From assembly GCA_903837345.1 (NCBI GenBank), contig CAILUG010000054.1, forward strand, positions 1 through 64,000: a stretch of DNA of 64,000 nucleotides, in the 5' to 3' direction. Of this stretch, positions 28,061-33,956 are shown piece after piece (the stretch's first letter is position 1; the number at the start of each line of letters is the position of its first letter). Below the pieces are notes generated by a model that saw only the letters and a list, made by a program, of their open reading frames with translations, did not search any database and was not told the DNA's origin. The translations under genes and the position numbers were made by a program. This DNA comes from an uncultured Gammaproteobacteria bacterium. Lineage in GTDB: Bacteria > Pseudomonadota > Gammaproteobacteria > Pseudomonadales > Pseudohongiellaceae.

Positions 28061-30037
28061 TCACCGGGGCTGGCGTGGAGTCGTGTTAATTGCCGGATTG
28101 ACCAGCACGGCTGCAGCCTGGTTTTTCTGCTCCTTGTTTTCCTTCGCTTCCTGCAGGATTTTCTCGAGCTTCCGGACCTGGAATCCATCTATTCCACGAT
28201 GCTTCCGGTTGACCTCCCGCACCAGATTGAGTGTGTCCGCTGCATCAACCAATTCGCCTGCGCTGACCTGGCTTTGCAGCAGTTCGGCCAGAATTACGAT
28301 GTCGCCGTTGGTTTCAAAGCCCATCCGCATATAGATCACACCTTGTGCATATTTCCCTTCCAGCAGAGCCTGAAAGCCCTGAAAGCGGTAAAGATAACCC
28401 CTGATCAGCGGATTGATTTGATTGCCCGGTTGCGACACTGCAGCATTGATAAGGCGCTCCATGTCCGGTTGCGTGATAGTGCTGGCGCATTTGCCGCCAT
28501 CGACAAGGGTGTAGAGTCTTTCCATGGAATTCATGGCGTATACGCTGACCGGATACGAGCCTAGTACCGAGACTGCCTTGTCAATCACCTCCGGCACTTT
28601 GATGCCCAGCGCACAAGCATTGTGAATCTGGTGCAACAGCGGACCTGCATCGCGCTGATCTATCGCCGCTGCCGCCTCCAGCTCTGTGCCGGTTTTGGCA
28701 AAGTCGCCATGAGTCGTGTAAAGATTGGCCATGTTGGTGTGGGCCCGTGACGAACCCGGATGATCGACAACTGCCTGTTGATCCATCAATTCTTCATTGC
28801 TCCACTCCTTGACCCGGCCAAAGGTCTGCAGCAGAAACACCAGGAAGAACAGCACCAAAACTGCAACAGCCAACCTGAATTCCTTGTAACCCAGTACGTA
28901 ATACACCACCGGCAACAAGACGCCCGCGAGAGCCAGATAGTTACGATGTTCGAATACCAGCTCGAGCGGAATAATGGTGGATTCCAGCAATTGGGAAATC
29001 AGGAACCACGCCAACCCAAACGCCAGCACCGGTGCCCGCTGACGCAACAGCCAGATCGCCGACACCACTGCCAGCATCAGTGCCAGCAGGATCAGGGTCA
29101 GCGGATCCAATGAAGCAGTCACCGGAAAATCATCATGGAACAAGCTCATGTCCCGCACCTTGGGCAACAACATCAGCTTCAGATAGAACGGGATGACATG
29201 CAGCTGGGTCAGCAGGCGTTGACCCAGCGTGAAGTTGCGAAGGCTGTAATCAAGCAGCTTCGAAAAATGCGTCACCAGATACACTCCGCCAACCAGCAGC
29301 GGCAACAATACAAACACCAGCAGGAACATCCGGTGCCGGCGTGGCAACTGGTTGGGAGAGGCCAAGCTGCGAAACACCAGCGCTTCATAAGCCAGGATGT
29401 ACAGGGGCAGCATAGCGCCGGTTTCTTTCGAAAAAACCGCAAGTGCCTGCAACAATGGATACAGCACCCACCCCACCAGCCAGTATTTTGCCGAGGCCTG
29501 TGGCTGGCTGCGTGCTGTCAGGTAGCACATCAGCCCAGCCAGCGTAAACAACGCTGCCAGAATGGTCATGCGCTGCACCACATACAGCACTGTGCTGACC
29601 AGCAGGGGATGCAACAGCCAGAATGCACTCACCACTCCGGCAGTAAGCAGAATGCGATTGCGATCAACAGCTGGCGCCAGCAGTGGCAAAGTCTGCAGCA
29701 ACAAACGGAACAGCAACATCCCGGTCAGCAGGTGCAACAACAGGTTATGGAATTTGTAGCCCCACGCTTCTACTCCATAGTGCCAGCCGCTTATTACAAA
29801 ACTGGTGATGGAAACCACCCGGCCCAGCATGCCGCTGTCATTGTGGGTGATGGTGTAGAGAAAACCCTCCCAGCTCATTTTGTCGAGATGGACGGCAACA
29901 ATATTCTGCAAATCGTCCAGAACGAAAGGGCCATTGAGTCCCGGCCAGTACACCAACACAGCAAGCAACAACACGGCTACCACAGCAATGGCGGCAGGTA
30001 GCGGGAAAGCGGTTGTTGTTTGCTCGGATCGCTGCAT
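28061..30037 (-). CDS. TMTC-like GT-C membrane glycosyltransferase candidate (paralogue 2), next to the pilin genes
   Basis: This 658-residue protein has about ten hydrophobic helices in the first 410 residues, then a helical soluble tail with TPR-like spacing (ANLYTTHGDFAKTGTELEA). It has an acidic pair in the first loop (FVLDDLQNI, Asp41-Asp42), the KFHNLLLHLLTGMLLFRLL helix, LYVVQRMTILAALFTLAG and FEHRNYLALAG, all with counterparts in the protein at 19823-21781. It lies directly downstream of pilA copy 1, behind that gene's terminator. In several bacteria the gene after pilA encodes a pilin glycosyltransferase (TfpW, TfpO/PglL), which is the basis for proposing pilin as substrate. Family membership is by eye only. 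Confidence 0.68.
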   Translation of the reverse strand: MQRSEQTTTAFPLPAAIAVVAVLLLAVLVYWPGLNGPFVLDDLQNIVAVHLDKMSWEGFLYTITHNDSGMLGRVVSITSFVISGWHYGVEAWGYKFHNLLLHLLTGMLLFRLLLQTLPLLAPAVDRNRILLTAGVVSAFWLLHPLLVSTVLYVVQRMTILAALFTLAGLMCYLTARSQPQASAKYWLVGWVLYPLLQALAVFSKETGAMLPLYILAYEALVFRSLASPNQLPRRHRMFLLVFVLLPLLVGGVYLVTHFSKLLDYSLRNFTLGQRLLTQLHVIPFYLKLMLLPKVRDMSLFHDDFPVTASLDPLTLILLALMLAVVSAIWLLRQRAPVLAFGLAWFLISQLLESTIIPLELVFEHRNYLALAGVLLPVVYYVLGYKEFRLAVAVLVLFFLVFLLQTFGRVKEWSNEELMDQQAVVDHPGSSRAHTNMANLYTTHGDFAKTGTELEAAAAIDQRDAGPLLHQIHNACALGIKVPEVIDKAVSVLGSYPVSVYAMNSMERLYTLVDGGKCASTITQPDMERLINAAVSQPGNQINPLIRGYLYRFQGFQALLEGKYAQGVIYMRMGFETNGDIVILAELLQSQVSAGELVDAADTLNLVREVNRKHRGIDGFQVRKLEKILQEAKENKEQKNQAAAVLVNPAINTTPRQPR

Positions 30038-30090: not shown

Positions 30091-30124
30091 AAAAAAGCCA
30101 GTCTCTTGCGAGACTGGCTTTTTT
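30091..30124. terminator. Terminator after pilA copy 1
   Basis: AAAAAAGCCAGTCTC, loop TTGC, GAGACTGGCTTTTTT. A perfect 9-bp stem with symmetric A/T runs. The same hairpin, slightly changed, follows the other two pilin genes. Confidence 0.93.
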
Positions 30125-30157: not shown

Positions 30158-30589
30158 TCAGTTGCAGCTGCCAGGCAGGTACTTGGAACCAACGATGGCT
30201 TCGCACTTCCAGTCAACACCACCGGAACTGTTCTTGGTGGGGCGCAGTCCCAGGGACACCTGCTTGCCGCCGGTGATACCCAGTTTGGTTGTGTTGCCTT
30301 TGACGAGGATGGTGGTACCGGTCCAGGCCAGGCTGCGGGTCATGCCGGAAGTTACCGACTGGATGGTGATCTGGGTGGATGTAGGCACTTTGCCGTTGAT
30401 GATGGTGTACTCGGATATCAGGTTCTTGGCAGTGGTAGCTGCCAGGATGATTTCAGAGGCTTTGGCACGGATGGTGTAATCCTGGTAGGCCGGTAGTGCA
30501 ACGGCCGCCAGAATGCCGATGATCGCGATTACGATCATCAATTCAATCAGGGTGAAACCCTTCTGGATCTGCTTCTTCATGTTTTGCAT
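30158..30589 (-). CDS. pilA: Type IV major pilin, copy 1
   Basis: This prepilin has 143 residues. The leader [11 protein letters not shown] is cut by PilD before Phe1 of [20 protein letters not shown], with Glu5 in place. The mature protein is 132 residues. The two cysteines near the C-terminus (KCEAIV and GSCN) would close the D-region loop. The start is set at 30589, where AGGAG lies eight bases upstream; an internal ATG at 30580 is less favoured. It differs from copy 3 at four mature positions. It is in the same direction as the other copies and has its own sigma-54 promoter and terminator. Confidence 0.96.
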
Positions 30590-30717: not shown

Positions 30718-30733
30718 GGCAAGTCCTGTGCCA
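30718..30733 (-). promoter_or_regulatory. Sigma-54 promoter of pilA copy 1
   Basis: On the minus strand TGGCAC-AGGAC-TTGCC. This is a full match to the -24/-12 consensus TGGCAC, five bases, TTGC. It lies about 130 bases upstream of the start codon, leaving a leader of about 118 bases. PilA transcription by RpoN with PilR is established in Pseudomonas. Confidence 0.88.
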
Positions 30734-31024: not shown

Positions 31025-31456
31025 TCAGTTGCAGCTGCCAGGCAGGTATTTGGAACCAACGATGGCTTCGCACTTCCAGTCAACACCACCGGAACTGTTC
31101 TTGGTGGGGCGCAGTCCCAGGGACACCGACTTGCCGCCGGTAATCCCCAGTTTGGTGTTGTTGCCTTTGACGAGGATGGTGGTACCAGTCCAGGTCAGGC
31201 TGCGGGTCATGCCGGAAGTTACCGACTGGATGGTGATCTGGGTGGCTGTAGGCACAACACCGTTGATGATGGTGTACTCGGAGATCAGGTTCTTGGCAGT
31301 GGTAGCTGCCAGGATGATTTCAGCGGCTTTGGCACGGATGGTGTAATCCTGGTAGGCCGGCAGTGCGACGGCAGCCAGAATACCGATGATCGCGATTACG
31401 ATCATCAATTCAATCAGGGTGAAACCTTTCTGGATCTGCTTCTTCATGTTTTGCAT
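31025..31456 (-). CDS. pilA: Type IV major pilin, copy 2
   Basis: This prepilin has 143 residues, with the same leader, processing site and C-terminal cysteine pair as copy 1. Compared with copy 3, the mature sequences differ at only three places (RAKAAE/RAKASE, NGVVP/NGKVP, PTATQ/PTTTQ), plus one change in the leader. ATG 31456 has AGGAGCACG upstream; a TTG three bases earlier is not needed. The whole unit (terminator, gene, sigma-54 promoter, upstream site) of about 870 bases is repeated in tandem. Confidence 0.96.
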
Positions 31457-31578
31457 CAACGTGCTCCTTGGATTTGGAAAATGTGGTTAGTTTCGTTTGA
31501 AATAATGTGGTTGCGAACATTGACCCTGCATCCATACAGATCAGCACACCAACATACCTCAACATGCTCTTATCTCAA

Positions 31579-31594
31579 GGCAAGTCCTGTGCCA
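31579..31594 (-). promoter_or_regulatory. Sigma-54 promoter of pilA copy 2
   Basis: On the minus strand TGGCAC-AGGAC-TTGCC, identical to the element of copy 1 and about 123 bases before the start codon. Confidence 0.88.
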
Positions 31595-31901: not shown

Positions 31902-32333
31902 TCAGTTACAGCTGCCAGGCAGGTATTTGGAACCAACGATGGCTTCGCACTTCCAGTCAACACCACCGGAACTGTTCTTGGTGGGGCGCAGTCCCAGGGA
32001 TACCGACTTGCCACCGGTAATCCCCAGTTTGGTGTTGTTGCCTTTGACGAGGATGGTGGTACCAGTCCAGGTCAGGCTGCGGGTCATGCCGGAAGTTACC
32101 GACTGGATGGTGATCTGGGTGGTGGTAGGCACTTTGCCGTTGATGATGGTGTACTCGGAGATCAGGTTCTTGGCAGTGGTAGCCGCCAGAATGATTTCAG
32201 AGGCTTTGGCACGGATGGTGTAATCCTGGTAGGCCGGCAGTGCGACGGCAGCCAGAATGCCGATGATCGCGATTACGATCATCAATTCAATCAGGGTGAA
32301 ACCTTTCTGGACCTGTTTCTTCATGTTTTGCAT
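31902..32333 (-). CDS. pilA: Type IV major pilin, copy 3
   Basis: This prepilin has 143 residues. The leader [11 protein letters not shown] (Val for Ile in copies 1 and 2) is cut before FTLIELMIV. The mature protein of 132 residues ends in the same two-cysteine loop. AGGAG lies eight bases before ATG 32333. It is the outermost copy. Its sigma-54 element and upstream palindrome have diverged slightly from those of copies 1 and 2, so copies 1 and 2 share the more recent regulatory ancestry, although the proteins of copies 2 and 3 are closest. Confidence 0.96.
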
Positions 32334-32456: not shown

Positions 32457-32472
32457 GGCAAATCCTGTGCCA
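32457..32472 (-). promoter_or_regulatory. Sigma-54 promoter of pilA copy 3
   Basis: On the minus strand TGGCAC-AGGAT-TTGCC. It keeps the -24 GG and -12 GC with correct spacing, and lies about 124 bases before ATG 32333. Confidence 0.86.
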
Positions 32473-32771: not shown

Positions 32772-33956
32772 ATGGCAAGATCGACCAAGAGCCCAAGCGG
32801 AAAAGCGGTCAGCAAGAACGCAACTGCAGCCGGCCAGAAAACCGAATTCCGCTTTTACGACAACCGTCAGAACTATCTTTCATTCATCAACACTTGCAAT
32901 GAGAAATCCGCGATAGCGAAACGCGCCGGCAAGGAGTTTCAGCACCTGCGTCCGGTGCCGCCGGCGCTGCGCCTGTACGACGCCGGCATGGGCGATGCTA
33001 CTGTCCTCTCGGATTGCCTGCGCGATCTTCATCATCGCTTCCCCACTGTGCCAGTGGTGGTGGTGGCCAAAGAGATCAGCATGGAGGATGTGCGTATCGG
33101 CCTCGACAAAATGGTCGACCGTTTTTGCGAGCACCCGTCCACGGTGCTGGTGCTAACCAATCTCAACTACGCTGATTGCCGGCTGATGCCTTCCAACGTG
33201 GCGTCTGCCAATGCGATGAACTGGCAGGAAATCAAGCTGGAAGGCAGCATGTCATATGGTTACAAGCAGCAGCTGGAAAGCATGCATCCACTGTTTGCAC
33301 ATGGCTGGGAAACACAGACCAGCAAGACCAGCGGCAATCCGCTGTTCAAGCGCCCTTCTGTTGTCGTCATCTACCGTCAGGACCATCAGATTCTGCTGGA
33401 TGCGGTGATTCCACGCCCAGGCATGCAAAACTGGTATTTCGATTTCATTCTCGCCTCACAGCCCTGGCGTGCCCGCACCTCCGCCCGCTTCAAGGCCGAA
33501 AAGATAGTGGCACCACTGGTACGCTCACTGGCACCCGGAGGTCGGATGCTGATCATCCAGTCCTGCGGCAAGGATCCTGCTGAAGAGGTCATCAAGGAAT
33601 TCTGGCCCGGTGAACAGCCGTTCCCCGTCAATCGCCACGATATCCTTACCGAGCTGCGCGCAGTCCTGGGCCGGGAAGCGCGCCACTTCAAACTGCGGGA
33701 AGAGTCGGACGACAAGGCCATCTTCCGATACAGCATGCATGCGCTGCCCTCTGAAATAGGTGGTGCCAGCATCGGCACCTCCACGCTGTTTGCGGCGTGG
33801 AATGCTTCCGTCTACGTCAACCAGATCGAGGATCAGCGGCTGGAGCAAGTAATTCGCGATGGCACCTACCTCAAAGCCACTGAAAAAGTGCTCAATAAAC
33901 ACGGTGGCCTGCATTTCAACGATGAAGCGTTTGTAATCTCCCGCTATTACGACTAG
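32772..33956 (+). CDS. SAM-dependent methyltransferase-like protein
   Basis: This protein has 394 residues. The first 30 residues are basic and Ser/Thr-rich and probably disordered. LRLYDAGMGDATVLSDCLRD matches motif I of class I methyltransferases (glycine-rich loop), and FDFILASQPW with LVRSLAPGGRMLIIQSCG match motifs IV and V/VI. The C-terminal third is not recognised. AAGGGGAGCAGC before ATG 32772 is a strong ribosome site. It diverges from the pilin genes with about 440 bases between. The substrate is unknown. A link to pilus biology is only positional. Confidence 0.65.
   Translation: MARSTKSPSGKAVSKNATAAGQKTEFRFYDNRQNYLSFINTCNEKSAIAKRAGKEFQHLRPVPPALRLYDAGMGDATVLSDCLRDLHHRFPTVPVVVVAKEISMEDVRIGLDKMVDRFCEHPSTVLVLTNLNYADCRLMPSNVASANAMNWQEIKLEGSMSYGYKQQLESMHPLFAHGWETQTSKTSGNPLFKRPSVVVIYRQDHQILLDAVIPRPGMQNWYFDFILASQPWRARTSARFKAEKIVAPLVRSLAPGGRMLIIQSCGKDPAEEVIKEFWPGEQPFPVNRHDILTELRAVLGREARHFKLREESDDKAIFRYSMHALPSEIGGASIGTSTLFAAWNASVYVNQIEDQRLEQVIRDGTYLKATEKVLNKHGGLHFNDEAFVISRYYD

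Follow-up and report, generated by a model that had tools for sequence, protein, structure and literature searches.

A candidate GT-C pilin glycosyltransferase, distantly related to TfpW and linked to pilA, in an uncultured gammaproteobacterium

The protein encoded directly behind a pilA array in a member of the Pseudohongiellaceae, here called Q, is very probably an inner-membrane GT-C enzyme of the TfpW kind, which would O-glycosylate PilA in the periplasm with a polyprenyl-phosphate monosaccharide as donor. The branch to which Q belongs is best read, from the sequences compared, as an undescribed and widespread lineage of GT-C pilin glycosyltransferases. The gene is located at 28061..30037 on the minus strand of the window, i.e. 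the whole stretch of 64,000 nucleotides that was analyzed, and its entry in the ORF list comprises 658 aa with an ATG start. The 11 predicted TM helices span residues 13-413 and the TPR tail residues 414-645. The initial annotation had described a polytopic protein with an acidic pair in the first loop and a TPR-like tail beside pilA. This description was confirmed by the pair D41/D42, the 11 TM helices, the tail and the position of Q, which begins 121 bp past the end of pilA copy 3 on the same strand.

The pilA genes form a tandem of three near-identical copies with a period of about 870 bp, all on the minus strand (copy 1, 31902..32333; copy 2, 31025..31459; copy 3, 30158..30589). Each matches PF00114 and N_methyl, and their products are the presumed substrates of Q. 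A fourth near-identical pilin, with 94-97% identity to the three, stands alone on another contig next to an efflux operon (G000:C62:66768). The sigma-54-type promoter pattern TGGCAC-N5-TTGC occurs on the minus strand at 30719..30733 before copy 3, and likewise before copy 2 (31580-31594) and copy 1 (32458-32472). The window harbors four exact matches to it against 0.51 expected, three of which precede pilA copies. Each copy is followed by a terminator-type hairpin; the one between copy 3 and Q (30091..30124, minus strand) has 15 pairs and then a T-rich tail. A hairpin with a T-run was also detected in 46 of 65 gaps between pilin and GT-C gene at other loci, as counted by a simple rule with no shuffle control. 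The arrangement pilA-hairpin-Q is the one known for attenuation in the pilin-accessory cassettes of P. aeruginosa (PMC11841053). Within the window, neither a flippase nor a GT2 gene adjoins Q. Divergent from the array, 32772-33956 encodes a 394-aa protein that is still present at two related loci (L004 and L005); it gave no Pfam or PHROG match and looks methyltransferase-like by eye.

The linkage to pilin was assessed in two sets of genomes, 195 from the order and 321 from the class. Loci were sampled with the Q sequence alone as query, hence independently of pilin, and the surrounding DNA was then taken; the order set includes five further loci, L003-L007. The Q family was present in 44 of the 195 order genomes and 88 of the 321 class genomes, that is, in about a quarter of the gammaproteobacterial genomes sampled. 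A script located a pilin ORF within 1.5 kb in the order set at 37 of 40 readable loci and in the class set at 29 of 39. In all 66 cases the pilin lay upstream of the family gene and never downstream, in 63 of them on the same strand, and the gaps were mostly 10-150 bp. Inspection by eye added L065, in which a TfpY-like gene intervenes, and L153, for which a long start had been called, which raises the counts to 38/40 and 30/39, or about 86% overall (68/79). L007 and L142 are the same sequence, so that one locus is counted twice. The genome (3.26 Mb) contains four PF00114 pilins, so that a gene picked at random would have a pilin neighbor with a probability of about 0.2%; the link between Q and pilA is not due to chance. 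No tRNA was found as a landmark for the pilA slot, except at one locus. The cassette is patchily distributed, as six genomes of the same family lack a Q homologue (G045, G082, G111, G138, G162 and G184). One relative with 35% identity to Q (L143, G384:C35:105637-107505) contains a single in-frame TAG stop, and is either a broken copy or the result of a sequencing error.

Several loci carry tandem GT-C gene pairs behind one pilA (L042, L043, L050, L053, L059, L070, L144, L148 and others). In several genomes these copies belong to different subclades, as though each carried out a transfer of its own. About one quarter of the class-level loci have no adjoining pilin, and the same holds for a paralogue of Q in the window that the initial annotation had missed, although its observation on the pilA-adjacent protein stands. 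This paralogue, P2 (19823..21766, minus strand, 647 aa), retains every key residue, shares 35% identity with Q over 407 aa and is the only other family member in this genome. It adjoins an inorganic pyrophosphatase gene, and L168 and L172, which fall in the same subclade, likewise lack a pilin neighbor, hinting that this subclade may have a target other than pilin. Eukaryotic TMTCs act on several secreted proteins and Gtr enzymes on O-antigen. By analogy, Q could be a GT-C enzyme with broad or non-pilin targets, for which pilA is one substrate or a mere neighbor, and the membership of LPS and general protein glycosyltransferases in the superfamily fits such a role as well as P2 and the unlinked class-level members do. 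This reading is nevertheless improbable, given a pilin directly upstream at 68 of 79 loci with a conserved terminator-type gap and a Pseudomonas locus at which the Q-family gene is swapped with TfpW/TfpX/Y-like genes. In two Pseudomonas genomes (G197 and G212) family members fill the pilA slot in the order pilB<- ->pilA-GT-C-GT2, while in other Pseudomonas this slot carries TfpW or TfpX/Y-like genes.

Searches of Pfam, NCBIfam and PHROGs with Q returned weak TPR matches and nothing else, and phmmer and profile searches against the PDB returned TPR proteins only. The match of Q alone to TPR_19 is weak (E=0.025 at 421-463). Twelve of 25 relatives match TPR_19 (best 5e-11), TPR was also recovered by profile, and the tail of the full-length model matches TPR proteins in Foldseek. 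A TPR-like tail of Q is thus supported. An AlphaFold2 model of Q built on seven seq­uences shows 11 TM helices followed by a helical-repeat tail, with a modest pLDDT of 65 at full length. As Foldseek results for the full model were dominated by TPR folds, the membrane domain was modelled separately (pTM 0.73, pLDDT 64). Its best six PDB entries were Pmt4, AglB, ArnT and Pmt1-Pmt2, with probabilities of 0.63-0.99 and E values of 0.2-0.7; the model is consistent with a GT-C fold, short of proof. Positive-inside counts fit an N-in topology, which would place both the DD loop and the tail outside.

The acidic pair in the first periplasmic loop is retained in 102/102 (D41) and 99/102 (D42) family members, R73, K204 and R365 are invariant, and H364, R365, N366 and Y367 are nearly so. 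The family carries VQRM, LES and EHRNY motifs; in Q, the positions are DD 41-42, R73, QRM 155-157, KE 204-205, LES 351-353, EHRNY 363-367 and W412, with HRNYLA at 364-369. DD, R73, KE, the basic EL5 motif and the 11-TM topology match the descriptions of TMTC and ArnT, and in these enzymes an EL2 Asp contacts the acceptor and is salt-bridged to an EL3 Lys (PMC7801869). The corresponding column 158 is occupied by D in TfpW (4/4) and in most TMTC-like proteins (10/12), and by T, A, N or S in the Q family (D in 0/102). The absence of this Asp from all 102 members indicates that the site is remodelled. Q155, M157, E352, N366 and C517 are nearly specific to the family, and it may be guessed that the invariant E352 stands in for the missing Asp. 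The loss of the loop-2 Asp could also point to a non-catalytic helper of pilin assembly in the manner of TfpX/TfpY/TfpZ that has retained the GT-C fold, and TfpY, which occupies a like slot, does act in assembly and leaves the pilin unmodified (PMC11841053). It is hard, however, to reconcile such a helper with the near-complete retention of the D41/D42 pair and the invariance of R73, K204 and R365, with the GT2 sugar-lipid synthase that travels along, or with L065, which has a TfpY-like gene besides its family member. A helper function is therefore quite unlikely, and a catalytic GT-C protein remains the preferred reading.

The GT2 gene lies downstream of the family gene on the same strand at 38 of 44 order-level and 26 of 39 class-level loci (64 in total), and is immediately next to it in 54. 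The nearest known relatives of its product are dolichol-phosphate mannose synthase, ArnC, sll0501 and AglJ, and judged by its sequence the protein is a polyprenyl-phosphate-sugar synthase of the GtrB/DPMS type. The proposal of the initial annotation that Q uses a lipid-linked sugar is thereby strengthened, since a conserved neighbor of this kind strongly suggests such a donor. In this genome the GT2 gene is unlinked to Q. It is located at C46:160230 and its product shares 61% identity with the GT2 of the Pseudomonas genome G212. The site (L190:2123-7088) reads pilD-pilC-pilB<- ->GT2 ... nadC, ampD, with pilA gone and GT2 alone, whereas a SAR86-type relative (L006) has pilDCB<- ->pilA-GT-C-GT2-methyltransferase-PF03706-GT4 ... 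nadC, ampD. In the window and in the relatives L004 and L005, the pilA-GT-C pair lies between the 394-aa gene/metG and fhs; on the short contig L003 the fhs side alone is visible. The gene order suggests that the pilA-GT-C pair moved and GT2 stayed behind in this genome, and an ancestral pilA site that has kept GT2 without pilA indicates relocation of the pilin genes in this lineage. A membrane protein of PF03706 (LPG_synthase_TM) recurs in the cassette (L006, L046, L056, L091 and L092), and is a possible flippase or accessory protein.

TfpW of Pseudomonas paraeruginosa PA7/Pa5196 is a GT-C pilin D-arabinosyltransferase that adds alpha-1,5-linked D-arabinofuranose. Its donor, polyprenyl-P-D-arabinofuranose, requires DprE1. 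This enzyme (PF04030) was detected in PA7 (4.5e-76) and was absent from this genome in the profile search. In PA7, pilA (L087:9316-9855, minus strand) is followed by a 641-aa and then a 245-aa protein; this matches the described order pilA-tfpW-tfpX (PMC12369383), which identifies the 641-aa protein as TfpW. Pairwise, Q and PA7 TfpW are marginally similar (E=0.012). Profile-profile comparison of 25 family members with four TfpW-type proteins, in contrast, gave a probability of 99.8 and an E value of 9.9e-29 over 542 columns, tail included. Of the families against which the initial annotation had proposed HMM searches, GT39 (PF02366, PF13231) and TMTC (DUF1736) gave no match, and TfpW was matched by profile. 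DD, R73, K204-E205, Y285 and W412 of Q have counterparts in TfpW. The initial annotation had set TfpW apart by its different signatures; this did not hold, as TfpW of PA7 is homologous to Q, distantly but over the full length, and shares its DD/R/KE/W frame, its kind of tail and its genomic slot. This homology, together with the common frame and slot, indicates that Q represents a divergent offshoot among TfpW-type enzymes and not an unrelated lineage. The idea of a further pilin-modifying lineage therefore survives in part: a TMTC-like GT-C/TPR protein, linked to pilA and without a Pfam or NCBIfam model (as searched with Q and 25 members), yet related to TfpW.

The profile homology, the common slot and the common residues would also fit a plain TfpW orthologue that adds alpha-1,5-linked D-arabinofuranose. 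In a tree of 118 proteins, built by a quick method with SH-aLRT support only, the Q family (102 rows) nevertheless splits off with a support of 100, the TfpW core has 95, and TfpW and TMTC-like paralogues lie outside the Q family branch. Simple orthology was rejected on account of this separate clade, the differing EL2 and EL5 signatures and the lack of DprE1 in this genome, and as the family is linked instead to a hexose-type GT2, arabinosylation by a plain orthologue is highly improbable. The relatives of GT2 and the distribution of DprE1, absent here and present in PA7, rather predict as donor of Q a polyprenyl-phosphate monosaccharide other than D-Araf.

A mechanism can be proposed for Q as a divergent pilin glycosyltransferase. 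On the cytoplasmic side, GT2, whose gene in this genome lies at the former pilA site next to pilBCD, would load a monosaccharide onto polyprenyl phosphate, and a flippase would turn the charged lipid to the periplasmic face. There, the basic residues R365 (EL5) and R73 (EL1) may bind the donor phosphate and D41/D42 may serve catalysis. The sugar would pass to Ser/Thr of pilins that are still held in the membrane and unassembled, and the TPR tail of Q, on the periplasmic side, would select the pilin. The sequences themselves establish the pilA linkage, the homology to TfpW, the conserved residue frame, the association with GT2 and the separate clade, whereas within this scheme we infer the glycosyl transfer, the pilin acceptor, the acceptor residue, the type of sugar, the role of the tail and the flippase. 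The cassette of pilA, one or two GT-C/TPR copies and GT2 may, with the balance leaning slightly in favor, represent a widespread third class of dedicated pilin glycosylation that has no name yet. In it, a GT-C enzyme devoid of the usual loop-2 Asp would transfer single sugars carried on polyprenyl phosphate, and copies in tandem would build short glycans stepwise. TfpW had seemed to be a rare enzyme of a few Pseudomonas; should the Q branch work alike, GT-C pilin glycosylation would be common. Pilin glycosylation by TfpO and TfpW shields cells from phages that bind pili, and influences immune recognition as well as assembly (PMC11841053). The Q branch provides a defined three-gene cassette, with VQRM and EHRNY next to pilA as a marker for annotation, and Q is a candidate enzyme for adding single sugars to proteins. 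A search of the open-access literature retrieved TfpW, TfpO, TfpM, PglL and TMTC and no account of the Q branch.

Compared with known systems, Q shares most with TfpW of PA7/Pa5196, whose gene likewise lies directly behind pilA and whose product has a helical TPR-like tail and the DD/R/KE/W frame. However, identity is about 20-24% only and the two form separate clades. TfpW carries GRFD and GHERF where the Q family has QRM[TAN] and EHRNY, with the limit that the alignment of EHRNY and GHERF is possibly off by one column; Cys517 and Glu352 are conserved in the Q family, and its cassette, unlike that of TfpW, includes a GT2 partner. TfpO/PilO, TfpM, PglS and PglL modify pilin in the periplasm, as proposed for Q, and transfer oligosaccharides from a lipid carrier. 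They carry an O-antigen-ligase/Wzy_C domain, which Q lacks. The initial annotation had already seen no such domain, and neither Q nor any of 25 members matched Wzy_C, PF08409 (DUF1736), PF02366 or PF13231. A Wzy_C-type transferase was thus rejected as an identity for Q; the genome encodes a single Wzy_C protein, which belongs to an unlinked cluster of polysaccharide genes. For TfpO, TfpM and PglS, the gene is often a neighbor of the pilin gene (PMC12645811). TMTCs are GT-C proteins with 11 TM helices, DD in EL1, K in EL3, an Arg in EL5 and an extracytoplasmic TPR tail (PMC7801869). Q matches the eukaryotic O-mannosyltransferases TMTC1-4 in the 11-TM layout, the placement of DD, K and Arg and the outside TPR tail, but lacks DUF1736 and the EL2 Asp, differs in the EL1 and EL5 motifs and is linked to pilin. 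The three-component Gtr systems (GtrA flippase, GtrB synthase, GT-C) likewise combine a GT-C protein with a synthase of the GtrB/DPMS type. They differ from the Q system, for which GtrA was not identified, in that the predicted acceptor of Q is pilin and not O-antigen.
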